Positions 34,245 to 55,439 of a stretch of DNA of 64,000 nucleotides are shown in pieces. Position 1 is the stretch's first letter; each line of letters starts with the position of its first letter. The position numbers were made by a program, and so were the translations under genes. The notes under the pieces were generated by a model that saw only the letters and a program-made list of their open reading frames with translations, had not been told where the DNA came from and made no database searches. The stretch is from Streptomyces xanthophaeus (GTDB taxonomy: Bacteria > Actinomycetota > Actinomycetes > Streptomycetales > Streptomycetaceae). The stretch lies in assembly GCF_000725805.1 (NCBI RefSeq), contig NZ_JOFT01000017.1:348598-412597 (forward strand), written 5' to 3'.

Positions 34245-34374
34245 GCCGCAGGTCCGAGGCCTCTTCAATATAAATTGACAGGCCAAGTTGATTTGTTATG
34301 GTGCTGACACCGGATTCGATCCGGGGCGTTTTCGTTCACATTCACGTTACATTCACGGCCAACGGGGGGCCTTC

Positions 34375-35742
34375 GTGTATGACGCCATTGTCGTCGGCGC
34401 GCGCATTTCCGGCGCATCCGTGGCGATGCTGCTGGCGCGTCTCGGACACCGTGTCCTGCTGGTCGACCGGGCCCGCTTCCCGAGCCCCACCTCGTCGTCC
34501 ACCAACCTGATCCACCCGCCGGGCGTCCAACGGCTGCAGGAGTGGGGGGTCCTGGACCGGCTGAGCGGCCACACGATCCCCCGCATCACCAGCTACCGGC
34601 TGCAGAGCGGCCCCGTGGGCATGGAGGCCCGGCTGCCGCGGGTCAAGGACGTCGACTACGCGCTGTCACCTCCGCGGCTGGCCCTCGACGAGGCTCTCGT
34701 ACGGTGCGCGGTCGACGCCGGCGCGGAACTGCGCGAGGAGACCTCCGTGCAGGACCTGCTGCGCGACGACGACGGCACCGTCGTCGGGGTCCGCGGCACG
34801 ACCAAGGGATCGGGGCCCTTCGAGGAGCGCGCCGCCGTCGTCATCGGGGCCGACGGCAAGAACTCCAAGGTGGCGCAGCTGGTCTCCGCGGCCAAGTACC
34901 GCGACCAGCCGGTGCTGAGCAAGAGCCTGTGGACGTACTGGGACGGGCTGCCGCAGCCCTCCCTCGTCCGTACGTACCGCAAGAACCGGCGGCACCCCTT
35001 CACCTGGCCCACCCATGACGGTCTGACCATCGTGGGCGTCGCGTGGCCGACGGAGGACTTCCCCTCCCCCGGCTCGGACGAGGCCACGGACAAGGCCGTG
35101 ACCGACGCCCTGGCCGACGTCGACCCGGAGTTCGCGGAGCAGATGCGGGACAACCGGCGCGCCGACCGCTGGCTCACGGGTGCCGTTCCCAACTTCCTTC
35201 GCACGCCGGCCGGTCCCGGATGGGCCCTGGCCGGTGACGCCACGGCCACCCGGGACCCCATCACGGCCTCCGGCATCACCTACGCCGTGCTGGGCGCCGA
35301 ACTCCTGGCGGCCGCCGTGGACAAGGGCCTCACCGGCCGCGTCCCGATGCGCCGGGCCCTGGCCGGCTACGCCCGGGAGCGGGAGCAACTGGTCACCGGC
35401 CACTACGACTACACGCTCGACTACGCGCGCATCGCCGACCACGGTCCGGAGGAGCGCGCGCTCATCGAGGCGATGGGGCGCAGCCCCTGGCACGCACGCG
35501 ACATGATCGGCCTCTTCGCCACCGTCGTGCCGCCCTGCGACTTCTACTCCCGCGCCAACTTCCGCGCGCTCTTCGACTATCTCGACGACGAGAACGGCCT
35601 GCCGCCCAAGATCCGGATGCTGCGCTGGCTCCTGCACGGCGTGCCGGGCCTGCCCGCGGCCCCCGCCAGACTCGCCGACCGGCTCGTCGCCGCCAATCTC
35701 GGCCCGATGGGTGACCTGCTGCTGCGCAGCGCCAGGCCCTGA
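34375..35742 (+). CDS. FAD-dependent monooxygenase/oxidoreductase
   Basis: The protein is 455 aa. The N-terminal FAD-binding fold (VVGARISGASVAMLLARLG) is of the GARxxG type. It is followed by VVIGADGKNS (DG motif) and WALAGDATATRDPITASGI (GD motif), so it belongs to the PHBH-like flavin monooxygenases. It probably hydroxylates or epoxidises a cluster intermediate. A GTG at 34375 starts exactly at the first strand (VYDAIVVGA) with a G-rich site ahead; ATG 34288 is an alternative. It is the first gene of the PKS operon. Confidence 0.85.
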   Translation: MYDAIVVGARISGASVAMLLARLGHRVLLVDRARFPSPTSSSTNLIHPPGVQRLQEWGVLDRLSGHTIPRITSYRLQSGPVGMEARLPRVKDVDYALSPPRLALDEALVRCAVDAGAELREETSVQDLLRDDDGTVVGVRGTTKGSGPFEERAAVVIGADGKNSKVAQLVSAAKYRDQPVLSKSLWTYWDGLPQPSLVRTYRKNRRHPFTWPTHDGLTIVGVAWPTEDFPSPGSDEATDKAVTDALADVDPEFAEQMRDNRRADRWLTGAVPNFLRTPAGPGWALAGDATATRDPITASGITYAVLGAELLAAAVDKGLTGRVPMRRALAGYAREREQLVTGHYDYTLDYARIADHGPEERALIEAMGRSPWHARDMIGLFATVVPPCDFYSRANFRALFDYLDDENGLPPKIRMLRWLLHGVPGLPAAPARLADRLVAANLGPMGDLLLRSARP

Positions 35743-35856
35743 GCCGCGCCTCATCCGCGCGCTCGACCCGTCCCACCACTGCTCACCGCCGATGGCGTGC
35801 CGAGGCTGCCCCGAGGGGCCGCCCGTGCAACGCCGCGTTCCGAGGGGATCCCCAAG

Positions 35857-38800
35857 ATGTCCAGCACTCCGCCCGCCTCCGGGCCCGTACTCCTCTTTCC
35901 CGGCCAAGGCGGCTTCGACGGCGCCGCGTTCAGCCGTGCCGTCGCCGGACACCCGCAGTTGCGCGCGGTGTTCGAGTGCATCGACCCGGTGACGGAGGAG
36001 GCCTACGGACGGCGGCTGACGGACACCCTGTTCCAGGACGCGCCGCTGGAACTCGCCCAGCTGCTCCGGGACGAGGCGTGGGTCTCCCAGCTCGCCATCT
36101 ACGGCACCGGCCTGGCCGCGTACCGCATCCTGACCGACAACGGGGTCCGGCCGTCGGTGCTCGTGGGCCACAGCCTCGGCGAGATCACCGCGCTCGTCGC
36201 CGCGGGCGCGTACTCGCTCGAGGACGGCGCACGGATCGTCCTGCGGCGTACGAGCGCCATCGCCGGGCGGGACACGGGCAGCGGGGCGATGGTCGCCCTG
36301 TCCGCTTCGCCGGAACGCAGCGCGGGCATGGTCGCCCTCGTCGGGGACCCCGCACTGGCCGTCGCCACGGAGAACCACGACGCCCAGACCGTGCTGAGCG
36401 GTCCGGGCGCGGCGATCGCCAAGGTCAAGGCCGTCGCGGAGCAGCTGGGCATCGGCTTCGCCCAGCTGGACGCCTCCTTCGCCTTCCACAACCCCACCCT
36501 CGCGGGGGCGGCCCCCGGTTTCGCCGCGGACGTCCGCGGACTGCGGCAGCGCCCGCTGGCCGTACCGGTCTACTCGCCGATCCTGCAGCGGTTCTACGAG
36601 GACGACGAGAGCCTCGGCGACCGTCTGGCCGACCACTTCACCCAGCCGGTCCGCTTCTCCGCCGCCGTCCGGTTCCTGCACGAGCGCGGTGAGCGCACCT
36701 TCGTCGAGGCGGGCGGCCGGGCCACCCTGGCTTCGCTGGTCCCCAAGGCCCTGCTCGGGGTCGCGGCCGAGGACCTCACCGTGCTGTCCACCCTGTCGGT
36801 CGGCCGGGGCAACGCGCTGCGGCTGCCGGACACCCTGGAGACCCTGCGGGAGGCCGGGCTGGCCTCGCGGCCCGGCGGCCTGGACGCGGTGCGCCTGCAC
36901 CTGGCGCCCGGTCTGTCGGAGGACGAGTTCACCGCCTTCTGGGCGCAGTCGGGGCGCGAGGTCGCGGACCTGGTGGCCCGACGGCTGACCGTGTTCCGGG
37001 ACACGGCCGGCGCGATCGGCACCGCCGTGGCGTCCGCGGCACCCGCGGCACCCGCACCGGCTCCGGCTCCGGCTCCGGCCGTGGAGGAGTCGCGGCCGTC
37101 CGCCGCGGCCGCCCCCGCCGACCGGCCGGGACGCGAGGAGGTCTTCGCCGTGCTCCGCACCCTGTACGCGCAGGCCCTGGAGTACCCCGAGGAGGTCTTC
37201 ACCCCCGGCGCACTGCTCGAAGCGGAGCTCGGCGTGGACTCCGTCAAGCAGGTCGAGCTCCTCTCCCGCGCCTCCACCCACTACGGACTCCCCGCACGCG
37301 CCTCGGACTTCCGCCTCGGCGACTACGCGGGCCCCGCAGAGCCCGCGCCCGCGCCCGTACCCGCGCCCGCGCCCGCCGCGGCACCCGCCGCCTCCGCACC
37401 CGCGGAGGAGGAGGTCTTCGCCGTGCTCCGCACCCTGTACGCGCAGGCCCTGGAGTACCCCGAGGAGGTCTTCACCCCCGACGCGCTCCTCGAAGCGGAA
37501 CTCGGCGTGGACTCCGTCAAGCAGGTCGAGCTCCTCTCCCGCGCCTCCACCCACTACGGACTCCCCGCACGCGCCTCGGACTTCCGCCTCGGCGACTACA
37601 GCGGGCGAACCGGAGGAAAGACCCCCATGAACGACCTGAACGACCTGAGCGGCAAGATCGCCCTCGTCACCGGCGGTGCCCGCAACGTGGGCAAGGCCAT
37701 CTCCACCGCCCTGGCCGCGCGCGGGGCACACGTACTGATCAACTACTTCCACTCCCACGAGCAGGCCAAGCAGACGCAGGATGAACTGCGGGCCCTCGGC
37801 GCCGAGGTCGACCTGCTGCGTGCGTCGGTGGCGCGGCCCGAGCAGGTCACCAAGATGTTCTCGGAGATCGAGCGCCGCTTCGGACGGCTCGACATCCTCG
37901 TCAACAACGCGGCCAACGGGGCGCTCGTCCCGGGGCCGGAGGTCACCGACGAACTGCTCGACAAGGCCCTCGACACCAATCTCAAGGGCGGTCTGCGCTG
38001 TGCCCGCGCCGCCGCGCCGCTGATGGCGCGCGGGGGCGGCGGCTCCGTCGTCAACGTGTCCGCGCTCGGCGGTTCCCAGATGGTCATGGCCAACTACCTG
38101 GCCTGCGCCCCGGCGAAGGCCGCCGTCGAGGCGGCCGCGCGGTACCTGGCCGTGGAGTTCGCCCCCCAGAACATCCGGGTCAACACCGCGTCCGCCGCGA
38201 TGCTCACCAGCGAGGTCGCGGACGCTTTCCCCGACGCCGAGGCCATGCAGGCCGCGATCGTGGCGGGCACCCCGCTGGGACGGCTGGGCCGGCCCGAGGA
38301 GTTCGCCGAGCTGGTGGCCTTCCTCGCCTCGGACCGGTCCTCCTGGATCACCGGGCAGCTGATCCTCGCCGACGGCGGCCTGACCCTGGGCGCCCCGCTG
38401 CTGTCACCCCCGGCCCGGACCGCGGAGGCCCCCGCGGCGGCCCCGGAGCCCGTCGAGGAAGTGCACGAGGAGACGTCCGCCGAGGCACAGGCCGAGCCAC
38501 GGCCCGGCTCTCCCGCCGAGGCGCAGATCGACGCACCCGCCGAAGCGCAGGCCGAGGGACACGACGACGCGTACGACGCGTACGCCGACCACGACATCGC
38601 CGTCGTCGGCATGGGCCTGGCCGTCAGCGGAGCCAGCTCCCCCGAGGAGTTCTGGCAGCTGCGCACCACGGGCCGCGAACTCTTCGTCGAGGTGCCCGAG
38701 GACCGCTGGGAACGGGCGAACTTCTCGTCGCGCGAGCGCACCGACGAGGACAAGTCGTACCAGGACACCTGCGTGTTCATCACCGACTTCCACCCCGAGC

Positions 38801-41800
38801 GCGCCGCGCTCGACGGCCTCACGGACACCCCCGACGAGACCGAGCTGACCACGCTGTGGCTGCGCCACTCGCTCGTCCAGGCCCTCGACGGGGTCCGCCA
38901 CGCCCCGTCCGACCGGTTCTCCTTCCACGTCGGCTACACCGCCGACGGCAGCCAGCACCTGGAGGAGGCGGGGGTCCTCGCCGCCGCCCGCCACCTGACG
39001 TCCGAGGTGGCCGCGGACATCGACCTGCCCGCGGACTCCCGCGCGAACCTGCTGGGCCGCGTGGACAAGGTCCTCTCCGGCCGCTACCACCGCGGCGCCA
39101 CGGCCACCCCCCGCTTCCTGCCCCACCAGGTGGGCCGCCAGGCCATGGCCGGCGTGCTGCCGGACCACACCCAGATGCAGATGGTCGACACCGCCTGCTC
39201 CTCCTCCCTCTATGCCATCGACATCGGCATCAAGGGCCTGCTCATGGGCAAGCAGGACATCGCCGTGTGCGGCGGGGCCTTCGCCCTGGCGCCCCGTGGC
39301 ACGGTGCTGTTCTCCAAGCTCAAGGGCCTGTCCCAGCGGGGCGCCGTGCACGCGCTCGACGCCGAGGCGGACGGGGTGATCTTCGCCGACGGTGCGGGGG
39401 TCGTCGTCCTCAAGCGCATGAGCCGCGCCAAGGCCGACGGGGACCGCGTCCTCGGGGTGCTGAAGGCCTTCGGGTCCTCGTCCGACGGCAAGGGGAAGGC
39501 GATCTACGCGCCGAGCTCGACCGGGCAGAACCTGGCCGTCCAGCGGGCGCTGGAAGCCGGTGGCCTGGAGGGTTCGGACGTGGACTGGGTCAACGCCCAC
39601 GCCACCGGCACGCCCGCCGGCGACCTCGCCGAGTTCACCACGCTGCGCCAGCACTACGGCCTCGCCCGGACCACCGCGGTGACCTCGAACAAGTCCCTGA
39701 TCGGGCACACCGGCTGGGCCGCGGGCGTGGTCTCGCTCATCGAGTCGATCCTGGCCATGCGGGAGGAGACCATCCCCGGCCAGTACCGCTTCTCCTCCGC
39801 CCCCGGCTCGTTCGAGCTGGACTCCTCCCGCCTGGACATCTCCAGCAGCGCCCGCCCGTGGCCCGCCGTACCGGGACGGACCCGTGCGGCGGCGATCTCC
39901 GGCTTCGGCTTCGGCGGCACCAACGCCCACCTCATCCTCACCGAGCAGGGCGGGACCGGGCACGGCGGCGCGGAGCAGCGCGCTGCCGTGCGGAGCGCGC
40001 GGACCGGGGCCGGTACGTCCGGGCCCATCCCCGGCACGGACCGCATCGCCGTCGTCGGCTGGTCGGCGAAGCTCCCGGGGGTGGACGAACGCGCCCAGGT
40101 GCTCGACTGGCTGGCGGGCTCGCGCGAGGTGGAGAACGGGTTCGGCGAGAAGTACCCGACTCCCCCGTTCCAGCAGGTCCGGATGCCTCCCGCGACCGTC
40201 CGCACCATCGACCGGTGCCAGCTGATGATCCTGGCCTGCGCCCACGACCTGCGGGACCAGCTCCCGGAGTTCTGGCAGCGCCACGCCAAGCGCACCGGCG
40301 TCGTCATCGGGCACATGGGACCCACCCGCGCCGCGATGCTCTACGCGAACCGCTGCTACCTCGACGACATCGAGCGCGGCCTGCGCGAGGACGGCGAGCT
40401 CGCGTCGGCAGCCGGGCTCACCCCGCTGCTCGACGGGCTGCGCGAGCGGGTCCGCTCGATGGTGCCGGCCTCGAACGAGGACTCCTTCCCCGGGATGATG
40501 CCGAACGTCATCTCCGCACGGGTGGCGAACTACTTCGACCTCAACGGCCCCAACATCACGCTCGACGCGGGGCTCGCGTCGACCGTGTCGGCCTTCGCGA
40601 CCGCCGCCCGCTACCTCCACAGCGGCGAACTGGACTTCGTCCTCGCCGGCGGCATCAACGGCAACAGCCTGCCCGAGTACGGCGACCTGCTCGGCGAGGT
40701 CTTCGAGCAGCCGGTGGACCTGGCCGAGGGCGCCTTCCTCTTCGGCCTCACCACCGAGCGTGCCGCCAAGGAGGCGGGCCTGCAGATCCTCGGCTACGTC
40801 GACGAGGCCGACGCCGGTGCGACGGCCCGCCGCGACGACGCGGGCCGCACCGTCCTCGACTGCGGCTCCCGCGGGGAGTCCGGCCGCTACCTCGGCGCCT
40901 CGGGCGCGGTGGAGATCCTGCGCGCGCTCCAGCGCGGCGCGGGCCCCACGGAGATCCGCTGCCGTGAGAACGGCCACGACGTGGCGACGCGTCTGCTGGT
41001 GACCGGCCCGCAGGAGGAACGGCAGGAACAGCAGCCTCAGGAGGAACAGCAGGAGCAGGAGCCGCAGGGCGCTGCCACCGGGCTCCGGTCCGGCGCGCCT
41101 GCGGAGGTCACCGGCACCGTCGAGCGCTACGCGTCCACCCTGCGGCCCGAGCCCGCGGCTCCGCGCGGAGCCGCGGCGGCAGCCGTCCCCGACGGCGCGC
41201 TCGTCCTCACGGACCGGCCCGAGCTGGCCGCGCGCCTCGTGGGCGGGGCCACCGGCTGTGTGGTGCTGAGCACCACCGGGGAGGCGGCCGAGCGCCTCGG
41301 GGTGATCCACGTGCGCCCCACGCCCGAGGCCGTCACCGAGGCGCTGCGCGCCGTCCCCCACCCGCTGCGCCACGTCGTCCTGGTGAGCGACCTGTCCGCC
41401 TCCGCGCCGCCCTCCTCCGCCCTCACGGCGCAGCACCCGGGCCTGACCGCCCTGCACGACCTGGCCTTCCTGGTGGTGCAGCAGCGGTACGAGGAACTGG
41501 GCCACGCTTCGGCGTCCGTGGTGTTCGCCCTGCTCGGCGCCGTGCCGGACGGGGTGGCGCACCCGCTGGTCGGACTGTTCACCGGTCTGGTCAAGTGCGT
41601 GCGCCTGGAACTGGCCGACGCACAGGCCTTCGCCCTCGTCATGGCCACGGCCGACGCGGACGGGGCGGCCGCGCTGATCGGCACCGAGCGGGTCAGCGAG
41701 CGCGCCTTCCCGGTGGTCCACCACGACGGGACCCGCCGGCTCGTCCCGGCGCTGGTCCCGCAGAGCTCCACGGCGCCCGCCGTCGCGGGCACCACGGGGG

Positions 41801-43689
41801 CTCGGCCGCTGGAGCGGGAGTCCGTCGTGGTCGCACTGGGCGGTGCCCGGGGCATCACGGCCGAACTGCTCGTGGCCCTCGCCGAGCGGCACGGCAGCCG
41901 GATCTACGCACTGGGCAGCAACCCGGTCGACTCGTACCCGCCGGAGGTGTTCCGGGGCACGGACGAGGAGTTCGCGGCCACCCGCGCCGCCTACATCAAG
42001 GAACGGCTGAAGGCCGGCGGGCAGACCGTCGCCGAGATCAGCAGGTCCTTCGACCGGATGGCCGACGCCCGCACCGCCCGCGCGAACCTCGAACGGATGG
42101 AGCGGCACAGCGGCGCGGGCCGGGTCACGTACCTGACGTGCGACGCCCGTGACGAGGCCTCGGTCCGCGCGGCCTTCGACACCGTCCACGCCGAGCAGGG
42201 CCGCGTCGACCTGGTGATCAACGCACCGGGGCTGAACCGGTCCGGGCTGATCCGGGACAAGGACTTCGGCGAGTTCCGCAGCATCCGCGACCTGAAGGTG
42301 TCGGCGCACCGCAACCTGCACCGGGCGCTGGCCGGACGGCCGCCGCGGATGTGGTGCGACTTCGGTTCGCTGCTCGGGTTCTTCGGGCAGCGCGGGGAGG
42401 CCGACTACGCCTCCGGGAACGACTACCTGGCGACGGCCGCGGGGTACGCGGCCCGGGCCACCGGCACCGACGAGTTCGTCGTGGGGTGGACCCTGTGGGA
42501 CGAGGTCGGCATGGGCGCCGACGAACTGACCCGCGAGTACTTCAAGCGGGCCGGCTCGTACACGCACATGCCGGTCGCCGAGGGGGTGCGGCACTTCCTG
42601 GCGGAGCTCACCACCCCGCACCGGGTGCCCTCGCACGTGCACCTCGGTACGGCCGAGCGCGCCACGGTGGAGTCGTTCTACCCCGGCTACCTCGACGGTC
42701 CGGACGCGGCCGCGGCGGCGCCCTCCGACCGGCGCGGCCGGTTCTACCTGCGCCGGACCGCCGGGGAAGAAGCCGGGACGGTCCGCTTCGAGTGCCCCTT
42801 CGACCTGGACACCGACGCGTACCTCCACGGGCACCTGGTCCGCGGTGTACCCACCCTCCCCGGCACGTTCGTCACCGAGGTCGCGGCCGAGGCCGCGCTC
42901 GCCCTGGTGCCGGGCGGCTCGGTCGTCGCCTTCGAGGACGTGCGCTTCCTGCACTTCCTCCAGGTCCGCGAGGGGGTGGCCCAGGGCCCGAAGAAGATCA
43001 CCGCCACCCTGGCGGAGCGGGTCGGCGACGTGACGGCGGTGGACGTGTCCATCACCCACGACGTGGTGGCCCCTTCGGGTGTGCTGCTGGTGGCCGACAA
43101 GCCGCACTTCACGGCCCGCGTCCTGGTCAGTGACGCCTTCCCGGCCGCGCCCACCTGGCAGGCCTGGGACGACGAGGGCGGCTTCCCCGTCGCCGACCCG
43201 TACCACGCGGCCTCGGCGCCGGTGCTGCTCAGCGGTGACTTCGAGGTCACGACCGGGACGCGCAGGTACCCCGAGGGGTCCCGGTCGCTGTACCGGCCGT
43301 CCTTCGGTACGGCGTCCGGCCCCTGGAAGGACTTCCTGATGCCGGCCGTCCTGCTCGACGCGATGGCCCGTACCGGGGTGCTCGACCCGGTCGACGGTCT
43401 CGTGCCGGTGGCCGCGCCGCTGTCCATCCGCCGGATCGACCTGTACCAGAGCGCCAACGACCTCGAACTCAGCGAGCGGCACGGGCCCTTGGATCTGTAC
43501 GTGACCAACCCCGGGTTCTCCGGGGAGCGGCAGGAGGGGAACCGCTTCGTCGCCGTGGCCCCCGGCGGCCGGGTGGTGGCGCAGATGAAGGACCTGGACG
43601 CGACCGTGATCGGGCACCTGGACCCGCAGACCGGTGTGGTGCACCCGCCCGCACCCGTGGCGGCCGGCCGGCAGGCGGCATCGGCATGA
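35857..43689 (+). CDS. Iterative megasynthase AT-ACP-ACP-ER-KS-CLF-KR-DH
   Basis: The protein is 2610 aa. Domains in order: AT (GHSLGE, Ser106; FAFH at 208-211 suggests malonyl); two ACPs (GVDSVK, Ser462 and Ser553); an SDR domain (591-840) with GGARNVG and Tyr747-x6-Lys754, the FabL/FabI-type enoyl reductase motif; KS (910-1370, DTACSSS with Cys1114, plus HATGT and GHTGWAAG); a KS-like CLF (1396-1680) with Leu1573 in place of Cys; a KR (Ser2171, Tyr2184) with a structural half; and a DH with HxxxGxxxxP (His2326). The KS-CLF and KR/DH set recalls PUFA synthases, but the N-terminal AT and SDR-type ER differ. An ATG at 35857 with GAGGGG upstream is chosen over 35797. It stops in the ATGA of the next gene. 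Confidence 0.9.
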   Translation: MSSTPPASGPVLLFPGQGGFDGAAFSRAVAGHPQLRAVFECIDPVTEEAYGRRLTDTLFQDAPLELAQLLRDEAWVSQLAIYGTGLAAYRILTDNGVRPSVLVGHSLGEITALVAAGAYSLEDGARIVLRRTSAIAGRDTGSGAMVALSASPERSAGMVALVGDPALAVATENHDAQTVLSGPGAAIAKVKAVAEQLGIGFAQLDASFAFHNPTLAGAAPGFAADVRGLRQRPLAVPVYSPILQRFYEDDESLGDRLADHFTQPVRFSAAVRFLHERGERTFVEAGGRATLASLVPKALLGVAAEDLTVLSTLSVGRGNALRLPDTLETLREAGLASRPGGLDAVRLHLAPGLSEDEFTAFWAQSGREVADLVARRLTVFRDTAGAIGTAVASAAPAAPAPAPAPAPAVEESRPSAAAAPADRPGREEVFAVLRTLYAQALEYPEEVFTPGALLEAELGVDSVKQVELLSRASTHYGLPARASDFRLGDYAGPAEPAPAPVPAPAPAAAPAASAPAEEEVFAVLRTLYAQALEYPEEVFTPDALLEAELGVDSVKQVELLSRASTHYGLPARASDFRLGDYSGRTGGKTPMNDLNDLSGKIALVTGGARNVGKAISTALAARGAHVLINYFHSHEQAKQTQDELRALGAEVDLLRASVARPEQVTKMFSEIERRFGRLDILVNNAANGALVPGPEVTDELLDKALDTNLKGGLRCARAAAPLMARGGGGSVVNVSALGGSQMVMANYLACAPAKAAVEAAARYLAVEFAPQNIRVNTASAAMLTSEVADAFPDAEAMQAAIVAGTPLGRLGRPEEFAELVAFLASDRSSWITGQLILADGGLTLGAPLLSPPARTAEAPAAAPEPVEEVHEETSAEAQAEPRPGSPAEAQIDAPAEAQAEGHDDAYDAYADHDIAVVGMGLAVSGASSPEEFWQLRTTGRELFVEVPEDRWERANFSSRERTDEDKSYQDTCVFITDFHPERAALDGLTDTPDETELTTLWLRHSLVQALDGVRHAPSDRFSFHVGYTADGSQHLEEAGVLAAARHLTSEVAADIDLPADSRANLLGRVDKVLSGRYHRGATATPRFLPHQVGRQAMAGVLPDHTQMQMVDTACSSSLYAIDIGIKGLLMGKQDIAVCGGAFALAPRGTVLFSKLKGLSQRGAVHALDAEADGVIFADGAGVVVLKRMSRAKADGDRVLGVLKAFGSSSDGKGKAIYAPSSTGQNLAVQRALEAGGLEGSDVDWVNAHATGTPAGDLAEFTTLRQHYGLARTTAVTSNKSLIGHTGWAAGVVSLIESILAMREETIPGQYRFSSAPGSFELDSSRLDISSSARPWPAVPGRTRAAAISGFGFGGTNAHLILTEQGGTGHGGAEQRAAVRSARTGAGTSGPIPGTDRIAVVGWSAKLPGVDERAQVLDWLAGSREVENGFGEKYPTPPFQQVRMPPATVRTIDRCQLMILACAHDLRDQLPEFWQRHAKRTGVVIGHMGPTRAAMLYANRCYLDDIERGLREDGELASAAGLTPLLDGLRERVRSMVPASNEDSFPGMMPNVISARVANYFDLNGPNITLDAGLASTVSAFATAARYLHSGELDFVLAGGINGNSLPEYGDLLGEVFEQPVDLAEGAFLFGLTTERAAKEAGLQILGYVDEADAGATARRDDAGRTVLDCGSRGESGRYLGASGAVEILRALQRGAGPTEIRCRENGHDVATRLLVTGPQEERQEQQPQEEQQEQEPQGAATGLRSGAPAEVTGTVERYASTLRPEPAAPRGAAAAAVPDGALVLTDRPELAARLVGGATGCVVLSTTGEAAERLGVIHVRPTPEAVTEALRAVPHPLRHVVLVSDLSASAPPSSALTAQHPGLTALHDLAFLVVQQRYEELGHASASVVFALLGAVPDGVAHPLVGLFTGLVKCVRLELADAQAFALVMATADADGAAALIGTERVSERAFPVVHHDGTRRLVPALVPQSSTAPAVAGTTGARPLERESVVVALGGARGITAELLVALAERHGSRIYALGSNPVDSYPPEVFRGTDEEFAATRAAYIKERLKAGGQTVAEISRSFDRMADARTARANLERMERHSGAGRVTYLTCDARDEASVRAAFDTVHAEQGRVDLVINAPGLNRSGLIRDKDFGEFRSIRDLKVSAHRNLHRALAGRPPRMWCDFGSLLGFFGQRGEADYASGNDYLATAAGYAARATGTDEFVVGWTLWDEVGMGADELTREYFKRAGSYTHMPVAEGVRHFLAELTTPHRVPSHVHLGTAERATVESFYPGYLDGPDAAAAAPSDRRGRFYLRRTAGEEAGTVRFECPFDLDTDAYLHGHLVRGVPTLPGTFVTEVAAEAALALVPGGSVVAFEDVRFLHFLQVREGVAQGPKKITATLAERVGDVTAVDVSITHDVVAPSGVLLVADKPHFTARVLVSDAFPAAPTWQAWDDEGGFPVADPYHAASAPVLLSGDFEVTTGTRRYPEGSRSLYRPSFGTASGPWKDFLMPAVLLDAMARTGVLDPVDGLVPVAAPLSIRRIDLYQSANDLELSERHGPLDLYVTNPGFSGERQEGNRFVAVAPGGRVVAQMKDLDATVIGHLDPQTGVVHPPAPVAAGRQAASA
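37135..37599 (+). repeat. Near-identical tandem ACP-coding repeats
   Basis: Segments 37135-37326 and 37408-37599 (192 bp each) differ at about four bases by eye, including synonymous changes. They encode the two ACPs and are separated by an Ala/Pro-rich linker. The near-identity indicates a recent duplication or ongoing gene conversion. Confidence 0.9.
37612..37629 (+). promoter_or_regulatory. Internal Shine-Dalgarno and ATG at the start of the ER domain
   Basis: GGAGGA (37612-37617) is followed after 9 bases by an in-frame ATG (37627) that begins the enoyl-reductase domain (MNDLNDLSGKIALVTGG). This is exactly what a separate gene would have. It may be a scar of gene fusion or a working internal start. 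Confidence 0.6.
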
Positions 43690-46226
43690 CCGTACTGACC
43701 GAGGCCGCGACCGCGGCTGCCATCGCGACCGCGACCGCCGAGGGCTCTGCGGGGGCCGTCACCGCGGCTGCCTCCGATCCCACGACCCGTCCCGTGCAGC
43801 GCATGGTCTGGCGGCTGGCCACGGCCCCCGCTCAGGAGCCCGCCCGGTCCCTCGCCGGCCGCCGGATCACGGTGGTGGGCGGCGATGCGGCGACCGCCGG
43901 CAAGGTACGGGAGGCCCTGCGGCTCCAGGGTGCGACGGTCGCACCGGCGGGCCGGCCGGCGGCCGGGACGGCGGGTCCGGCCCCCGACACGGTCGTGGAC
44001 CTGACCCTGGCCGAGCGCTTCGTCCCCGGCGTGCCCGGGCAGTGGCGCGAGGCACTGCTGCGCACCTTCGGGATGCTGCGGGACTGCTACGAGGAGTGGA
44101 GCCGGGAGACGGCGGCCGACCGCCTGACCTACCTCGCCGTCACCTACCACGGCGGCGGGATGGGATACCACCCCGCCGACGATCTCGCCCAGCCGCTGGG
44201 CGGCCTGTGGGCGGGCCTGGCCAAGACCCTGCACCGGGAGCTCCCCAACTGCCGGGCCCGGGTGCTGGACACGGCCCTCGCCGACCTGGACGCCCTCCCC
44301 GGGCGGATCGTCTCGGAGCTGGTGCGCCCCGGGCTCAGCGAGATCGGCCACCGGGACGGCAAGCGCTGGACGCTCGCCCCCGACCGAGTGCCGCCGGGCC
44401 GCCCCGCCCTGCGGTGGACCGCGGCCGACACCGTGCTGGTCAGCGGCGGCGGACGGGGCATCGGGATGGCCTTCGCACGGCAGCTGTGCTCCGAGTTCGG
44501 CCTGCGCGCCGTGGTCACCGGCCGCGCCGAACTGCCGCCCGAGGACACCTGGGACGGCTACACGGCCGAGGCCCTCGCGGAGCGCCGCGGCGCGCTGTGG
44601 GCGACCCACCGGGAGGGCCGCGCCGTGTCCCGGATCCGCCAGGACATCGCCCGCGCGGAGAGCACCTGGGAGCTGGTCGCCAACCTCCGCTCGGCCCGTG
44701 CCGAGGGACTGCGGCTGGACTACCGGCCGTGCGACTTCACCGACGGCGAGCAGGTCCGAGCCCTGGTGGCCGGGCTCCCCGGGCTGACGGCCGTCGTCCA
44801 CAACGCGGGCGTGGACCGGCCGACCCGGCTGCCGAACAAGACGGACGAGGACATCGCCGCCGTGGTGTCCACGAAGGTCGACGCCTTCGTCCATCTGGTG
44901 GCGGCGGTGCGCGGCCTCGACCTGAAGGTGCTGTGCACGGTCGGCTCGCTGACCGGCAGGCTGGGCGGCATGGTCGGCCAGTTCGACTACGCCGCCGCCA
45001 ACGAGTGCCTGGCCCGGCTGGGCATGTGGGCCGAACGGCAGGTCTCCTTCCCGGTGATGACGCTGGCCTGGCCGACCTGGGCCAGGCTCGGGCTGATCGC
45101 CAACTTCGAGGCGAGCCTGCGGTACATGACGGCCATGGACGTCACGGAGGGCCTGGCGCACTGGCGGGCCGAGCTGCTGGCCGGCAGCCGCGGCGAGGTG
45201 TCCTTCGTCGGACCCCTCGGCCGCGCCCTGGACCCCGTACAGGCCCTGGGCTATCCGATGACCCCGTCGCTGCCCGGCTACGCCGAGACCTATCCGAAGG
45301 TGTTCCACGTCGGCCGGCCCGAGGTGTTCGAGACCCATGAACGCCTGTGCTCGGTCGTCGAGTTCGACCCGTCGACGAGTCCGGCCGTGGGTGACTTCAC
45401 CGTGCAGGGCGCACCCGCCCTGCCGGTCGGGCTGCTGCTGGAGAGCGCCGTGCGCGGCGCGGAATGGGTCGTGCCGCAGGACCTGCCGGAGCAGACCCTG
45501 CACGCGGTCGAGGACGTACGGGTGCCGTGGCCGCTGCTGCGCTGCCCGGCGGACGGTCCGCTGCGGCTGCGCCGTGACGTGCGGGCGGCCGGCCTCGTGG
45601 ACGGACGGTGGACCGTACAGGTCACCTTCCGCCCGGTGGACGCGACGGACGCGACGGACGCCCCCGCGACGGCCCCGGACACGGACGGGGACACGGCGCG
45701 GATGCGCCTGGTCTTCGCCGAGGCGCCGGCACCCGGGGCCGCGGACGCCGCCGACTCCGCGGCCGTCGCTGCGGACGCGGACCTCCCGCCCGCCGCCCCG
45801 CTGCCCGCGGCCCGCACCGGCAGCCGGTCCGGCGCAGCGGTGACCACCGTGTTCACCGACGCGCCGGTACTGGGCTGGCGGGGCCTCGTGGTCCCGCTGG
45901 GCACGTGGCGGCCGGCCGGCCGGCACGGGATCACCGTCGAGGTGGGCCGCTGCCACCCCCACGACCTGTGGGCGGTTCCGCAGCCCCCCACCTGCACGCT
46001 GCCGGTGGCCGCGGTCGAGAACCTCGTCCGCGCGGTCACCGAACGCACCCCGGGGCTGTACTCCACCCCGGACCCCCTGGTCGTCCAGCAGCTGACGCTG
46101 CACGGGGCGGCCCCCGAGCGGGTCCGCCTGACCGGCGACCCCGCCCTCGGTGTCTGGCGTCTCGACGACGCCGCCACCGGACGCACCGTGGCCCGCGTCC
46201 GCGGGCTCGCGGCCCATCGCATCTGA
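43686..46226 (+). CDS. KR-DH-like polyketide synthase subunit
   Basis: The protein is 846 aa. The N-terminal third is Ala-rich and contains a KR structural subdomain (PLGGLWAGLAKTLHREL). The catalytic KR follows (GGGRGIG at 254-260, Ser421, Tyr435 in DYAAAN). The C-terminal half is a double-hotdog DH-like region, but where the first DH has His in HxxxGxxxxP this one has Phe571 (FTVQGAPALP), so it is probably not catalytic. The ATG overlaps the megasynthase stop (ATGA), which suggests that the two subunits are made in equal amounts and work together. Confidence 0.8.
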   Translation: MTVLTEAATAAAIATATAEGSAGAVTAAASDPTTRPVQRMVWRLATAPAQEPARSLAGRRITVVGGDAATAGKVREALRLQGATVAPAGRPAAGTAGPAPDTVVDLTLAERFVPGVPGQWREALLRTFGMLRDCYEEWSRETAADRLTYLAVTYHGGGMGYHPADDLAQPLGGLWAGLAKTLHRELPNCRARVLDTALADLDALPGRIVSELVRPGLSEIGHRDGKRWTLAPDRVPPGRPALRWTAADTVLVSGGGRGIGMAFARQLCSEFGLRAVVTGRAELPPEDTWDGYTAEALAERRGALWATHREGRAVSRIRQDIARAESTWELVANLRSARAEGLRLDYRPCDFTDGEQVRALVAGLPGLTAVVHNAGVDRPTRLPNKTDEDIAAVVSTKVDAFVHLVAAVRGLDLKVLCTVGSLTGRLGGMVGQFDYAAANECLARLGMWAERQVSFPVMTLAWPTWARLGLIANFEASLRYMTAMDVTEGLAHWRAELLAGSRGEVSFVGPLGRALDPVQALGYPMTPSLPGYAETYPKVFHVGRPEVFETHERLCSVVEFDPSTSPAVGDFTVQGAPALPVGLLLESAVRGAEWVVPQDLPEQTLHAVEDVRVPWPLLRCPADGPLRLRRDVRAAGLVDGRWTVQVTFRPVDATDATDAPATAPDTDGDTARMRLVFAEAPAPGAADAADSAAVAADADLPPAAPLPAARTGSRSGAAVTTVFTDAPVLGWRGLVVPLGTWRPAGRHGITVEVGRCHPHDLWAVPQPPTCTLPVAAVENLVRAVTERTPGLYSTPDPLVVQQLTLHGAAPERVRLTGDPALGVWRLDDAATGRTVARVRGLAAHRI

Positions 46227-46254
46227 CCCTTCCCCACCCCAGAGGAGAACCACC

Positions 46255-46689
46255 GTGACCACGACCGAGACCACCCAGGTCAGCGCCAACCGCCGGGTCC
46301 TGGAGCACTACTACGAGGAGTGCCTGAACAAGGGCAACCTCGACGCCGTCTACGACAAGGCGATCCCGGGGCACATCAGCCACGGCACGCGTGCGGACGG
46401 CTTCGAGGGCGTCGAGCACCTGCGCGAGTGGGTCCGCATCCAGCGCGCCTCCTTCCCCGACCTCCACGTGGTCGTCGACGAGTGGATCGAGGAGGGCGAG
46501 AAGGTCGTCCAGCGGTTCACCGCGCGCGGCACCCACTCCGGCGACGACTACTACGGCGTCCCCGCCACCGGCCGGAAGATCGAGATCTCCGGCATCGTCA
46601 TCGACCACTTCGTCGACGGAAAGATCGTCGAGAGCTGGTTCTCGATGGACGGCATGGAGATCGCCCAGCAGCTCGGCATGCTCGGCTGA
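46255..46689 (+). CDS. SnoaL-like polyketide cyclase / ester cyclase family
   Basis: The protein is 144 aa with an NTF2 fold. It shows VLEHYYEECLNKGNLDAVYD at the start, then ISHG, VVVDEWIEEGEKVVQRFTARGTH (core of the cyclase family) and the closing VESWFSMDG. Family members catalyse aldol ring closure or hydrations in polyketide pathways, and the exact reaction cannot be predicted. GAGGAGAA precedes the GTG at 46255. It sits in the PKS operon. Confidence 0.8.
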   Translation: MTTTETTQVSANRRVLEHYYEECLNKGNLDAVYDKAIPGHISHGTRADGFEGVEHLREWVRIQRASFPDLHVVVDEWIEEGEKVVQRFTARGTHSGDDYYGVPATGRKIEISGIVIDHFVDGKIVESWFSMDGMEIAQQLGMLG

Positions 46690-46821
46690 CCCCTCCGGCG
46701 GGGCCCCGGCCCCGCCCCCCGGACCCGGACCGCCGAGGGCACGAACTTTTCGTCGATGCCGTGTCCCGGCGGTCCGTCACCACCCCATCACCAGGCACTA
46801 CGGACAGGAAGGGCAGACGCG

Positions 46822-47682
46822 ATGACTCAGGCGCCGACCGCTCTCGTCACCGGTTGTTCGTCGGGTATCGGCCGTGCCACCGCGCTGCGGCTGCACGCCG
46901 CCGGGTACACGGTGTACGCCACCGCGCGCAAGCCCGAGACCCTCACCGCACTCACCGCCCTCGGCATGCACGCGCTCGCACTGGACGTCACCGACCCCGC
47001 CTCCGCCCGGGCCGCCGTGGAGCGGATCGAGTCGGAGCACGGCTCGGTGGACGTGCTCGTCAACAACGCGGGCTACGGGCTCTCCGGCACCTTCGAGGAG
47101 ACCGGACTCGACCAGGTACGGGAGCAGTTCGAGACCAATGTCTTCGGCCTGGTCGGGCTGACCCAGCTGGTGCTGCCCGGCATGCGCCGGCGCGGCCGCG
47201 GCACCGTCGTCAACGTGTCCTCGATCTTCGGCAAGTACGCGGTGCCCGGCGGGGGTTACTACCACGCCAGCAAGCACGCCGTCGAAGCCCTCAGCGACGC
47301 GCTGCGCCTGGAAGTGGCCGGCTTCGGCATCCGGGTCGTGGTCGTCGAACCAGGCCCGGTCCGCACCCCCTGGGGGCAGACCTTCCTGGACCGCATCCCC
47401 GACGGCCGCAGCCGCGCGGACTCCCCGTACGCCCGGTTCCACGAACGCGCCGCCGCGTACTACGACGCGATCTACAACGGCACGCGCAGGACGCTCGCCG
47501 GAACCTTCGCCATCGAGGCCGAGCAGGTGGCCGAGGCCATCGAGAAGGCCGTACGGCGGCGCCGGCCGCGGGCCCGGTACCCGGTCGGGTTCCTGGCCGC
47601 CAGCACGATCGCACTGCGCCGCGTGGCCCCGGACCGGATCTTCGACAGCGCCTTCATCAGGCGCCAGTTCCCCGTCCCGTGA
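46822..47682 (+). CDS. SDR family oxidoreductase
   Basis: The protein is 286 aa. The cofactor loop is TGCSSGIG; NNAGYGLSGTFEE follows; catalytic Ser and YHASKHA are intact. It resembles the SDRs with a retinol/DltE-like C-terminal extension, a group that often acts on lipid-like ketones or alcohols. The ATG at 46822 is preceded by GGAAGG. It is in the PKS operon and could act on the acyl product. Confidence 0.85.
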   Translation: MTQAPTALVTGCSSGIGRATALRLHAAGYTVYATARKPETLTALTALGMHALALDVTDPASARAAVERIESEHGSVDVLVNNAGYGLSGTFEETGLDQVREQFETNVFGLVGLTQLVLPGMRRRGRGTVVNVSSIFGKYAVPGGGYYHASKHAVEALSDALRLEVAGFGIRVVVVEPGPVRTPWGQTFLDRIPDGRSRADSPYARFHERAAAYYDAIYNGTRRTLAGTFAIEAEQVAEAIEKAVRRRRPRARYPVGFLAASTIALRRVAPDRIFDSAFIRRQFPVP

Positions 47683-47739: not shown

Positions 47740-49134
47740 ATGACCACGACGGCGCCGACCCCGGCGACCACGGCACGCGGGAAGACCGCGACCGGACCAC
47801 GAGGCGTTCCCGTCCTCGGCAACCTGCCCCAGTGGAAGGGCGACACGGCGGAGTTCCTGCTGCGCGCGCAGCGCGACCACGGGGAGGTCTCCCGGCTGCG
47901 CCTGGGGCCGTACACGGTCCACCTCGTGACCGAACCCGACGCGGTGAGCCGCGTCCTGAGGGAGAACAGCGGCAACTACGTCCGCGGGGCGCTGTACGAG
48001 CAGTTCCGCACGGTCATGGGCGAAGGGCTGCTGACCACCGACGGCGACTACTGGAAGGCCCACCGGCGGGCCGTCCAGCCCGTGTTCCTGCGCAAGGCGG
48101 TCACGGCCGTCGAGCCCAACGTCGTCCGGGCGACGAACGAGATGCTCGACGAGTGGGAGGTCAAGGCCCGCCGCGGCGAGCCCGTGGACCTGGTCGCCGA
48201 GACCCTGCGCCTGACCCTCGTCACCCTGAGCCGGGCCCTGTTCGGCTACGACATCCGGCCCGCCACCCCCGTGCTCAAGGACGTGGTGAACAACGTCATC
48301 GAGGTGATGTTCAAGCACGGCTCCGTCGGCGAGATGCTGCCCTCGTGGATGCCGACCCGCCGCAACCGGCTCATCGCCCGCGACCGCAGGATCTTCACCC
48401 GGCTCGTCACGGAGATCAGGGACCACCACGCGTCCACCGGCGAAGGCCCCCTGATGGAACTCATCGAAGCGGCCACCGACCCGGTCACCGGGGCGCGGTG
48501 GAGCGACGAGGAGATCCGCGACGAGATGCTCACCATCTACCTCGCCGGGCACGAGACGACGGCCGTGTCCCTGCTGTGGACGCTCGTCTCGATCGCCAAC
48601 CACCCCGGTGTGGCCGAGGAGCTGGACGAGGAGCTCACCCGGGAGCTCGGCGGGGCCGTCCCGACCGCCCAGGACGTGGAACGGCTGCGCTACACGCAGC
48701 AGGTGGTCGACGAGAGCCTGCGCATGTACCCGCCGATCTGGATCTACCCGCGCGACGCCGTCGCCGACGACGAGCTCGCCGGCTTCCACATCCCCGGCGG
48801 GTCCTCCGTGCTGCTGTCCCCGCTGGTCTCCCACCGCAACCCGCGCTTCTGGGACAACCCCGAGGCCTTCGACCCGCACCGCTTCGACCCCGACCGGGTC
48901 AAGGAGCGCCCGCGGATGGCGTACTTCCCGTTCGGCGCGGGCGCCCGGATGTGCATCGGCAACTTCATGGCGCTGCTGGAGCTGCGGATGATCGTGGCGA
49001 TGATCCACCAGCGGTTCCGGCTCAGCCTCGTGCCCGGGGACTTCCTGCGCTACGGGGACACCGCGATCTCGCTGCGCCCGCGCTCCAAGGTCATGGTCCT
49101 GCCCCAGCCGCGCGAGCGGGGGACCCGGCCGTGA
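47740..49134 (+). CDS. Cytochrome P450, CYP4/CYP102-like
   Basis: The protein is 464 aa. It shows the I-helix AGHETT, the ExxR (ESLRMYPPIWIYPR) and the heme loop FPFGAGARMCIGNFMALLE with the Cys ligand. The sequence style (PRGVPVLGNLPQW at the N-terminus) is close to the fatty-acid-hydroxylase and CYP4-type P450s rather than to the typical class I bacterial forms. It probably hydroxylates the acyl chain. It is coupled to the aldehyde dehydrogenase by a GTGA overlap, so an alcohol-to-aldehyde-to-acid oxidation is a plausible joint task. Confidence 0.9.
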   Translation: MTTTAPTPATTARGKTATGPRGVPVLGNLPQWKGDTAEFLLRAQRDHGEVSRLRLGPYTVHLVTEPDAVSRVLRENSGNYVRGALYEQFRTVMGEGLLTTDGDYWKAHRRAVQPVFLRKAVTAVEPNVVRATNEMLDEWEVKARRGEPVDLVAETLRLTLVTLSRALFGYDIRPATPVLKDVVNNVIEVMFKHGSVGEMLPSWMPTRRNRLIARDRRIFTRLVTEIRDHHASTGEGPLMELIEAATDPVTGARWSDEEIRDEMLTIYLAGHETTAVSLLWTLVSIANHPGVAEELDEELTRELGGAVPTAQDVERLRYTQQVVDESLRMYPPIWIYPRDAVADDELAGFHIPGGSSVLLSPLVSHRNPRFWDNPEAFDPHRFDPDRVKERPRMAYFPFGAGARMCIGNFMALLELRMIVAMIHQRFRLSLVPGDFLRYGDTAISLRPRSKVMVLPQPRERGTRP

Positions 49135-50642
49135 CCGCCGTGATCCCCGACCACCGCCCGGGCTCCGGGACGGCGTCCGGACCGGCGGCGGTCGCCGGGG
49201 CCGTGGACGGCGCGCGCCGCGCCCAGCCGGACTGGGAGGCGCTGGGCTTCTCCGGCCGTAAGAAGGCCCTCGACGCCTGGCGGGTGCTGATCCTGCGCCG
49301 TACGGAGGAGCTGGTCGCCCTGATCCGCGAGGAGACCGGCAAGACCGCCGACGACGCCCGTCTCGAAGTGGTCCTCGTCGCCGACCACCTGCGCTGGGCC
49401 GCCGCCCACGCGGGGCGGGTGCTCGGCCGCCGCAGGGTCTCCTCCGGCCTGCTCATGTTCAACCAGTCGGCCACCGTGGAGTACCGGCCGCTGGGCGTGG
49501 TCGGGGTCATCGGCCCGTGGAACTACCCGGCGTTCATCCCCATCGGTCCGGTCGCCGCCGCGCTCGCCGCGGGCAACACGGTCGTCCTCAAACCGAGCGA
49601 GCTGACCCCGCGCGTCGGCGCATGGCTCGCCGCAACGCTTGCGGAGGCCGCCCCCGGGCCCGAGGTGCTGCGCATCGTGACGGGCGACGGGGACACCGGT
49701 GCGGCGCTGTGCCGGGCCGCCGTGGACAAGGTCTCCTTCACCGGCTCCAGCGCCACGGGACGGCGGGTCATGGCGGCCTGCGCCGAGAACCTGACCCCCG
49801 TGGTGATCGAGGGCGGCGGCAAGGACGCCATGATCGTCGCCGCGGACGCCGATCTGGAGGCCGCGGCCGACGCCGCGGTGTGGGCCGCCATGTCCAATGC
49901 CGGCCAGACCTGCGTGGGCCTGGAACGGGTGTACGTGGTGGACGGGGTGGCCGACCGCTTCCTGGACCTGGTCACCGAGCGGGCGGCCGCCCTGCGCACG
50001 GGAGAGCGGCCCGACGCCGACCTCGGACGGATCGTCCTCCCCCGGCAGGTCGAGGTCATCCGGTCCCACGTGCAGGACGCGGTGGCGCGCGGCGCCCGCG
50101 TCCTCCTGGGCGGTCCGCGGTCCATCTCCGCACCGTACGTGGCCCCGGTCGTGCTGGCCGAGGTGCCCGAGGACTCCACCGCCCTCACCGAGGAGACCTT
50201 CGGCCCGGTGCTCGTCGTCAACCGGGTGTCCGGCGTCGACGAGGCGGTCGCCCGCACCAACGCCAGCGCCTACGGGCTGGGGGCCTCGGTGTACACCCGT
50301 GACCGCGCCCAGGGGCGGCGCATCGCGGCCCGGCTGCGCACCGGCATGGTGTCGGTCAACGCCGTGATCGCCTTCGCGGGCATCCCCGCCCTGCCCTTCG
50401 GCGGGACCGGCGACTCGGGCTTCGGCCGGGTCCACGGGCCGGACGGACTGCGCGAGTTCAGCCGCAGCCAGGCCGTCACCACCCAGCGGTTCCGCCCGCT
50501 CATGCAGCCCAATTCCTTCGGCCGGCACCCGGACACCATGCGGACCCTGGTCCGGATGGTGCGGGCCCTGCACGGCCGCCGGGCCCTGTCCGGTGGACCG
50601 TCGCCGCGCCGCGGCCTTCCCCATGGAGAACGGACAACGTGA
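49131..50642 (+). CDS. Aldehyde dehydrogenase
   Basis: The protein is 503 aa. It contains GPWNYP (NAD site), the catalytic Glu in VIEGGGKDA, the nucleophilic Cys in NAGQTCVG, and the C-terminal PFGGTGDSGFGR. The fold is that of the class 3/coniferyl-type ALDH group with fatty or aromatic aldehydes as substrates. It overlaps both neighbours by 4 bases (GTGA). The final 40 residues (Arg-rich) are unusual for the family. Confidence 0.9.
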   Translation: MTAVIPDHRPGSGTASGPAAVAGAVDGARRAQPDWEALGFSGRKKALDAWRVLILRRTEELVALIREETGKTADDARLEVVLVADHLRWAAAHAGRVLGRRRVSSGLLMFNQSATVEYRPLGVVGVIGPWNYPAFIPIGPVAAALAAGNTVVLKPSELTPRVGAWLAATLAEAAPGPEVLRIVTGDGDTGAALCRAAVDKVSFTGSSATGRRVMAACAENLTPVVIEGGGKDAMIVAADADLEAAADAAVWAAMSNAGQTCVGLERVYVVDGVADRFLDLVTERAAALRTGERPDADLGRIVLPRQVEVIRSHVQDAVARGARVLLGGPRSISAPYVAPVVLAEVPEDSTALTEETFGPVLVVNRVSGVDEAVARTNASAYGLGASVYTRDRAQGRRIAARLRTGMVSVNAVIAFAGIPALPFGGTGDSGFGRVHGPDGLREFSRSQAVTTQRFRPLMQPNSFGRHPDTMRTLVRMVRALHGRRALSGGPSPRRGLPHGERTT

Positions 50643-51895
50643 CCACATCCCTGTCGCCCGACCTGGCCCGCCTCGCGGACCCCGCCGTCCGGCCCGATCC
50701 GTACGAGGTCCTGCGCGCGCTGCGCGAGGCCTCCCCGTACGCCGACCCGGCCAGCGGGATCGTCGTCGTGGGACGGCGCGCGGACTGCGAGAGCGTCCTG
50801 CGCAGCCCCAAGGTCAGCAGTGACCGCCGGGGGGCCGGCGTGACCAAGGTGCCCCAGATGCCCAACCTGATGAACCTGGACGCGCCCGACCACACGCGGC
50901 TGCGCAAGCTGGCCGGGAAGGCCTTCAAGCCACGCCTGATCGAGCAGTGGCGGCCCCGTATCGAGGAGATCGTCCAGGAGCTCCTCGCGGAGATCGCGGC
51001 CGGCGGGGACTGCGCCGACATCGTGTCCGCCTTCGCCTACCCGCTGCCGGTGCGCGTCATCTGCGAGATGCTCGGCGTGCCCCGGGAGGACCATCCGGTC
51101 TTCGAGACGTGGGCCCGTTCCATCGCCTACACCGTCGACCCCCAGCTGGTTCCCGGCGAGCTCTCCACCGAGGTGGCGGCGGAGGTCGAGGAAGCCCGGA
51201 CCGGGTTCATCGGCTACTTCCGCCGGCTGATAGCCGAACGGAAGGCGGACCCCCGCGACGACGTCCTCTCCGAACTGATCGCGGCCGAGGAGGCGGGCGA
51301 CCAGCTCACCGAGACCGAGCTGATCATCACCTGCGTCCTGCTGCTCGTCGCCGGGCACGAGACCACCGCCAATCTGATCCTCAACGGGATCCTGGGCCTG
51401 CTGCGCCACCCGGAGCAGCTGCGCCTGCTGCGCGAGCGGCCGGAACTGGCCGGGGCCGCGGTGGAGGAGGTCCTGCGCTACGACGCCCCCGCCCAGATGA
51501 TCACCCGCATCGCGCGCGAGCCGTTCACGCTCGGGGAGCTGGAGGTGACCCCCGGGACCCCGCTGCTGGTGCTGCTCGCCGCGGCGAACCGCGATCCGCA
51601 GGTGCACCGGGACCCGGACACCTTCGACATCACCCGCGGGGACCCCGGGCACCTCGGGTTCGCGGCGGGACCCCACTTCTGCCTGGGTTCCGTACTGGCC
51701 CGGCTGGAGGGCGGCATCGCCCTGAACGCCTTCGCCCAGGCCTTCGTCGAGCCGCGTCTGGACACCGCCGGCCTGCGCTACCGGCCGCACGTGTCGGTCC
51801 GCGGACCGGACCGGATGCCGGTCTCGTTCGAGGAGATCCGCCTCGGGGCCGTCCCCGCCGCGGGCTCCGGGCAGGGGACGGGGGCCGGCCGGTGA
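50639..51895 (+). CDS. Cytochrome P450, class I bacterial type
   Basis: The protein is 418 aa. It shows AGHETTANLILNG (I-helix), EEVLRYDAP (ExxR) and the heme loop GFAAGPHFCLGSVLARLE with Cys. It is of the CYP105/107-like style that uses ferredoxin electrons, and the ferredoxin gene overlaps its stop (GTGA). Substrate and position of oxidation are unknown. The GTG start overlaps the ALDH stop. Confidence 0.9.
   Translation: MTTSLSPDLARLADPAVRPDPYEVLRALREASPYADPASGIVVVGRRADCESVLRSPKVSSDRRGAGVTKVPQMPNLMNLDAPDHTRLRKLAGKAFKPRLIEQWRPRIEEIVQELLAEIAAGGDCADIVSAFAYPLPVRVICEMLGVPREDHPVFETWARSIAYTVDPQLVPGELSTEVAAEVEEARTGFIGYFRRLIAERKADPRDDVLSELIAAEEAGDQLTETELIITCVLLLVAGHETTANLILNGILGLLRHPEQLRLLRERPELAGAAVEEVLRYDAPAQMITRIAREPFTLGELEVTPGTPLLVLLAAANRDPQVHRDPDTFDITRGDPGHLGFAAGPHFCLGSVLARLEGGIALNAFAQAFVEPRLDTAGLRYRPHVSVRGPDRMPVSFEEIRLGAVPAAGSGQGTGAGR

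Positions 51896-52528: not shown

Positions 52529-55439
<2,911 letters not shown>

Follow-up and report, generated by a model that had tools for sequence, protein, structure and literature searches.

A conserved operon for a probable reducing acyl-chain synthase with a proposed FabL-type enoyl reductase in Streptomyces xanthophaeus and its relatives

The locus, its domains and their distribution

The stretch of DNA analysed here (the window, 64,000 nucleotides, GC content 71.7%) belongs to an 8.6-Mb draft genome of Streptomyces xanthophaeus in 162 contigs. An ORF scan finds a main ORF at 35797-43689 on the forward strand, open throughout and with a likely start at ATG 35857, followed on the same strand by a partner ORF (43686-46226) whose start overlaps the stop of the main ORF (ATGA). 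According to Pfam, the main ORF carries, in this order, AT, PP-binding, SDR, ketosynthase N and C, KR and PKS_DH_N domains, and the partner ORF carries a KR to which KR1 of the main ORF is homologous. A first-pass annotation had proposed a single AT-ACP-ACP-ER-KS-CLF-KR-DH megasynthase. The listed domains are present; the continuity of the chain with the AT in first place is, in contrast, doubtful for reasons given below. The genes and domains are as follows:

34288-35742 (+), FAD oxidoreductase of the geranylgeranyl-reductase-like superfamily, upstream tailoring gene
35893-36795 (+), AT (acyltransferase; PF00698), with the motifs GHSLGE and FAFH
37138-37326 (+), ACP1, short after DFRLGDY in the assembly (alignment against intact S. 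xanthophaeus proteins)
37408-37599 (+), ACP2 (PF00550, alignment), short at the same repeat point, its frame continuing into the next gene
37600-37626 (+), junction; GGAGGA precedes ATG 37627, where the separate core gene of relatives starts
37627-38418 (+), FabL-type SDR, proposed ER; N118, S145, Y157 and K164 counted from 37627
38599-39960 (+), KS (Pfam, catalytic residues, tree)
40060-41043 (+), CLF, KS-like without the catalytic Cys, about 330 aa
41101-42504 (+), KR1 with its structural half (Pfam KR); catalytic part 41839-42504
42718-43686 (+), DH1 (PF21089), catalytic His and Asp present
43758-45296 (+), KR2 of the partner, structural and catalytic halves
45303-46223 (+), pseudo-DH of the partner, predicted double hot-dog without the His, Glu778 kept
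46150-46689 (+), ORF with a SnoaL-like domain (PF07366); its 5' part overlaps the partner and the true start is probably later
46756-47682 (+), SDR, tailoring
47740-49134 (+), P450 of the conserved operon (PF00067)
49140-50642 (+), aldehyde dehydrogenase domain (PF00171), start position approximate
50639-51895 (+), second P450 (PF00067)
56709-57434 (+), phosphopantetheinyl transferase (PF01648) near the operon, membership of which is not implied

The core of this locus, from SDR to DH1, defines a large family: a database search returned 4090 proteins at E <= 0.001 among 7981 candidates scored. Most of the 120 family proteins listed measure about 1,850-2,150 aa, and the sources mostly name them 'SDR family oxidoreductase'. 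A scan of one genome per species yielded 129 relatives, the best 80 of which were studied. Across these, the Cys/His/His triad of the KS is complete in 80 of 80, and the site Cys of the CLF is found in none of the 79 with letters at that position. The Lys, Ser, Tyr and Asn of KR1 are kept in all 77 with letters (78 aligned), as are the His and Asp of DH1 (77/77 with letters). The AT retains its Ser in the GHS motif (76/76) and Phe at the third place of xxFH (74/76); the window's GHSLGE and FAFH motifs we take to denote a malonyl-type AT. Conservation of catalytic residues is thus far beyond chance.

The best 80 relatives fall mostly in Actinomycetota; other hosts are Burkholderia, Paraburkholderia, Methylocapsa, Paenibacillus, Tumebacillus, a Symbiobacteriaceae MAG, two Chloroflexota and an Archangium MAG. 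The family is patchily distributed. Among 61 related genomes, our own included, the clearest further SDR matches are 76% (G024) and 56% (G027) identical, and the next ones, at 46% and 43%, lie in ORFs of about 2,000 aa; by the strict test of an exact DNA pattern of one conserved motif, only the window's own genome out of 296 genomes of the phylum is a match. From sequence comparison, the locus is best read as one instance of a conserved operon, AT-ACP / ER-KS-CLF-KR-DH / P450 / KR-pseudoDH, present in Actinomycetota, Burkholderiaceae, Bacillota, Chloroflexota and others.

Several relatives have surroundings of their own. Six Burkholderia loci (L030, L031, L051, L061, L066, L078) carry genes for a peptidase-C39 ABC transporter and HlyD upstream of the core, which suggest export of the product. 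The AT-ACP, core and P450-partner genes of L133 are plasmid-borne, with an integrase and IS elements in their vicinity. A distant KS-CLF relative on plasmid p4 of Azospirillum argentinense (L130) sits in a cluster with PPTase and SDR genes and two fatty acid desaturases. Downstream of the operon, L013, L014, L022, L027, L028, L055 and others of S. violaceusniger type carry genes for squalene/phytoene synthase and polyprenyl synthase; these probably form a neighbouring hopanoid-type cluster and were set aside.

The partner protein, the P450 and neighbouring genes

What does the partner contribute? The first-pass annotation had given it a second KR and a DH-like half. The KR stands, while the half turns out, in a structural model, to be a whole double hot-dog. 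Its HxxxGxxxxP motif has lost the catalytic His in 65 of 65 proteins, with Phe (48), Val (14) or, once each, Leu, Tyr and Thr in its place, which is how we come to call it a pseudo-DH. Conceivably, this domain is not a dead dehydratase at all, but represents another catalytic kind such as a thioesterase that depends on Glu and sets the chain free. There are hot-dog thioesterases whose helix carries an Asp or Glu, and while the His is gone throughout, the acid is invariably Glu (64/64 with letters) and Trp731 is kept in 65 of 65; the model puts Glu778 in the second hot-dog helix, and, among the genes scanned, no other domain for chain release was evident. The conservation of Glu and Trp may, however, be structural, and 10 of 72 loci do without the partner, so that the chain must end by another route there. 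We regard a catalytic role as a reasonable possibility but not as the better bet, and continue to treat the partner as a KR-pseudoDH protein.

The partner and the P450 travel together. Counted over the 72 loci with at least 6 kb of sequence downstream, the partner occurs in 62 and a P450 like the window's in 60, all 60 having both. The two exceptions with a partner and no such P450 are L060 and L081; the 10 loci that lack the partner have no such P450 downstream, one of them (L069) having one upstream. Gene order varies, with the P450 first in 42 loci and the partner first in 18, and fusions occur, the P450 being encoded in one ORF with the core (3 loci) or with the partner (11 loci). The layout with the partner is recognisable in a plasmid record too, where a 4,035-base gene named cytochrome P450 directly follows the core gene on the Paraburkholderia ginsengisoli plasmid NZ_CP066077.1 (L133), an arrangement that corresponds to P450-partner. 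This linkage, together with the ORFs shared with the core or the partner, suggests that the P450 may act within the complex.

Further genes differ between branches of the family. The FAD enzyme, the SnoaL-like protein, the SDR and the P450 are common to the window and its close relatives, and an aldehyde dehydrogenase is shared with L006-L009, L041 and L046 at 66-84% identity. Terminal oxidation of the chain to a carboxylate would fit the combination of P450, SDR and aldehyde dehydrogenase. Among the partner-less loci, AfsA is found in L040 and L042 and, by gene cluster, in L062; L068 has acyl-CoA-oxidase-like and wax-ester synthase genes, L059 an RPE65-family gene and L076 a PKS module. In addition, a biotin carboxylase/carboxyltransferase protein adjoins L018, and its gene cluster recurs in L029 and L049. 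Neighbours of these kinds, from AfsA to the acyl-CoA carboxylase-like protein, are what one would expect beside a supplier of acyl chains.

The ACP repeat and the apparent AT-core fusion

Is the AT really part of the same polypeptide as the KS? In the alignment, both ACPs of the window stop right after DFRLGDY, which is the same point of the tandem repeat; ACP1 is thereby short by 17 residues and ACP2 by 24 together with the end of the gene. S. xanthophaeus itself supplies the closest AT-ACP proteins: four protein clusters of 611-619 aa, 97-98% identical in the alignment, in which AT-ACP-ACP is a separate protein with both ACPs complete. More generally, the AT-ACP part and the core are both present in 76 of 80 loci, and in 75 of those 76 the AT, SDR and KS do not lie in one ORF. 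The sole exception is a locus of S. bicolor (L007), where again both ACPs end at one shared point of the repeat, different from that of the window, and where the second ACP copy continues into an SDR without its start. The missing SDR start is present in the S. bicolor protein P0004, the only one with an AT Pfam domain among the 120 family proteins listed, whose ACP region seems to be out of frame. In two drafts, then, both repeat copies are broken at a single point and a 'fusion' results, which argues for mis-assembly of tandem ACPs. The one-chain AT-ACP-ACP-ER-KS-CLF-KR-DH arrangement in the contig is, judged from these alignments, probably an assembly artefact in the ACP repeat.

Alternatively, deletions in the source strain may have joined the two genes while an internal start was kept. 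Such a true fusion would agree with the uninterrupted frame from 35797 to 43689 and with the GGAGGA retained before ATG 37627. It would also account for the failure of a second copy of the missing ACP piece to turn up elsewhere in the assembly of the genome, other contigs included. It would, however, require two deletions at the same place of both ACP repeats, each losing an ACP end, in a species whose near-identical proteins are separate; and the one-ORF form recurs in 1 of 76 loci, there too with a shared cut point in the two ACPs and an SDR that lacks its start. On balance, we find this scenario unlikely and regard AT-ACP and core as two genes.

Two sets of candidates for a fusion elsewhere were set aside. 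The S. bicolor locus was rejected as independent support for the reasons just given, both of its ACPs being cut at one point and the SDR lacking its start. Ten other loci initially listed as having an AT ORF that continues into the SDR proved to contain short overlaps, leaving L007 as the only one with AT, SDR and KS in one ORF. A corollary is that tandem ACP repeats can produce false gene fusions in draft genomes, which calls for caution in reading such architectures.

The FabL-type SDR and the relation to known synthases

The SDR segment opens the core gene. Its best match among solved structures is FabL of Bacillus subtilis (PDB 3oic) with 183.8 bits, 40 bits ahead of the next, a FabG (143.9); the FabL alignment is gapless across Tyr-x6-Lys, whereas that with FabG has a three-residue gap there. 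BsFabL bears the signature Asn-Xn-Ser-Xn-Tyr-X6-Lys (PMC9260719). All four signature residues are present in the window, and across the relatives Y-x6-K is kept in 79 of 80, the Asn in 78 and the Ser in 77. A tree built from 47 SDRs places the family with FabL and with other Y-x6-K proteins (97.6/100), apart from the Y-x3-K ones; that these others are without assigned function is a point against the enoyl-reductase reading. The NCBIfam FabL model NF005975 tops the listed SDR models with 224.9 bits and yet stays below its cut-off of 328. Taken together, the segment is a FabL-type SDR by sequence and a proposed enoyl reductase, in keeping with the in-line SDR-type ER of the first-pass annotation; a plain FabG-type KR, which would have spoken against it, is rejected by signature, best solved match and tree. 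In contrast to the free-standing type II enzyme of B. subtilis, the SDR here is the N-terminal domain of a megasynthase. L062 (Blastococcus mobilis) is the only one of the 80 loci whose SDR lacks the Tyr and Lys, with Gln at both places; located beside an AfsA-family gene, it is perhaps a natural ER-dead variant.

Might the segment nevertheless be a third ketoreductase, or some other SDR? FabL is a relative of FabG, the segment is well matched by FabG models too, and the FabL site itself has been called a hybrid of FabI and FabG (PMC9260719). Against this stand the near-invariant Y-x6-K, Asn and Ser, the FabL match and grouping, and the two other KRs already present in the system, so that we hold the idea to be quite unlikely and retain the assignment as a proposed enoyl reductase.

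How does the family relate to synthases already described? Pfa systems consist of PfaA (KS-MAT-ACPn-KR), PfaC (KS-CLF-DH2) and the enoyl reductase PfaD (PMC3098273), which is a TIM-barrel FMN enzyme (PMC13311796). The likeness to PUFA synthases drawn by the first-pass annotation holds for the KS-CLF pair, the KR and the DH, and the two are likely to share the logic of using malonyl units iteratively. PfaA-like order is absent, AT-ACP being a separate gene in relatives; no PfaD-type TIM-barrel FMN enzyme was seen among the window genes scanned, and a FabL-type SDR stands in line as the ER segment. On the PfaA model TIGR02813 the window scores 414.9 bits, well below the cut-off of 1010.1 (the Persicobacter PfaA control scores 2529.7), and on NCBIfam PKS_plus_SDR (NF045894) it scores 499.7 against a cut-off of 1740. 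The KS tree was built with Persicobacter PfaA, the KS downstream of it taken as PfaC, SgcE and own-genome sequences as references; the PfaC reference (the L135 protein) was identified by its position and its second KS-like domain. In this tree the family and the distant relatives L130 and L131 make up one clade (100/100), apart from PfaA plus SgcE (joined at 67.1/83), from PfaC and from modular KSs, with few references and a weak deep order. In this small tree with its weak deep branches, the KS does not go with PfaA, PfaC or the enediyne KS. Of five Pfa features compared, one is found here and three are not; for the fifth, the position of the KS, the tree puts the family outside both Pfa branches, with few references and weak deep branches. 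'PUFA-synthase-like' may thus describe a possible working mode but not membership.

That the family is a PUFA (Pfa) or heterocyst-glycolipid-type synthase proper whose domains have been rearranged, as the KS-CLF pair, the KR and DH and the place of PfaA as next-best NCBIfam model might suggest, is improbable given the sub-threshold score, the SDR in place of a TIM-barrel ER and a KS outside the PfaA and PfaC branches, in a tree of few references, weak deep order and no HglE.

Other comparisons are looser. SgcE is an iterative type I synthase that contains a KS, as the family appears to be; the KS of the S. globisporus C-1027 enzyme (L129) is 25.8% identical and lies in another branch, which does not agree with a PKSE grouping. 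The pfa-like catalogue of Shulse and Allen, a collection of such clusters, includes actinobacterial types L and M, type L being KS-CLF-DH2-AT with PfaD (PMC3098273); the family may overlap with type M, the available text giving no domain order for that type. Hybrid PKS-NRPS-PUFA-like clusters likewise recruit PUFA-like machinery for specialised lipids; those described in the available part of that report are of Pfa type, and the window's family is not among them (PMC13291983). Full-text literature, with subscription papers thinly covered, gave neither a description of this domain order, including the partial orders ER-KS-CLF, KS-CLF-KR and CLF-KR-DH, nor a product for the family. The statement that no described enzyme has this order accordingly holds for the literature covered, where no close homologue of known product with this order was found; uncharacterised homologues are many.

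How might the operon build its chain? The AT would load malonyl units onto the ACPs, the KS with the CLF would condense them, KR1 would reduce and DH1 then dehydrate, and the FabL-type SDR would use NADPH to reduce the enoyl group, either in every cycle or in some of them. We envision the partner and the P450 as an accessory unit by which oxygen functions on the chain are retained or introduced, and that in the window's clade the SDR, aldehyde dehydrogenase, FAD enzyme, SnoaL-like protein and, in some members, a second P450 might act further on it. The full reductive set with intact residues argues for an iterative reducing synthase, and we consider it rather probable that the operon encodes one, with AT-ACP in gene 1 and ER-KS-CLF-KR-DH in gene 2, together with the P450 and the KR-pseudoDH partner. 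Domain identity, catalytic residues, operon conservation, the P450-partner linkage with its fusions and the separate AT-ACP and core genes of relatives can be read from the sequences directly, while ER activity, iteration, chain length, the action of the P450 on bound chains and the order of the steps are what we infer.

More tentatively, the family might constitute a separate, so far undescribed class of iterative megasynthase spread over several phyla, in which a FabL-type ER is built in, the P450, as an integral subunit, oxidises the chain on its carrier, and the invariant Glu of the partner's hot-dog finishes or releases it; on the comparisons above, this combination is possible rather than likely. 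According to PMC13311796, enoyl reductases come from three superfamilies, SDR, TIM-barrel and MDR: most bacterial fatty-acid enzymes have the SDR fold, while PUFA synthases, FabK and certain PKSs use the TIM barrel. A FabL-type SDR within a KS-CLF synthase would, if true, be another ER solution, and one in a large family. The linkage to a P450 and, elsewhere, to AfsA, wax-ester synthase, RPE65-family and PKS-module genes points to a reusable supplier of lipid chains.

The same genome contains a second PUFA-like locus outside the window (L134; G000:C7:315504-323160), whose two KS-bearing ORFs reach 600.3 and 350.5 bits on TIGR02813, below the cut-off. Within the window, the ORF at 52529-54907 (reverse strand) encodes a SufS-type cysteine desulfurase whose N-terminal part is long, and it partially matches a family 2A encapsulin cargo model (546.9 against a cut-off of 800). 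Another reverse-strand ORF, at 62296-63873, matches S-methyl-5-thioribose-1-phosphate isomerase (residues 13-336) and adenine phosphoribosyltransferase (355-522), possibly a fusion of two salvage enzymes.
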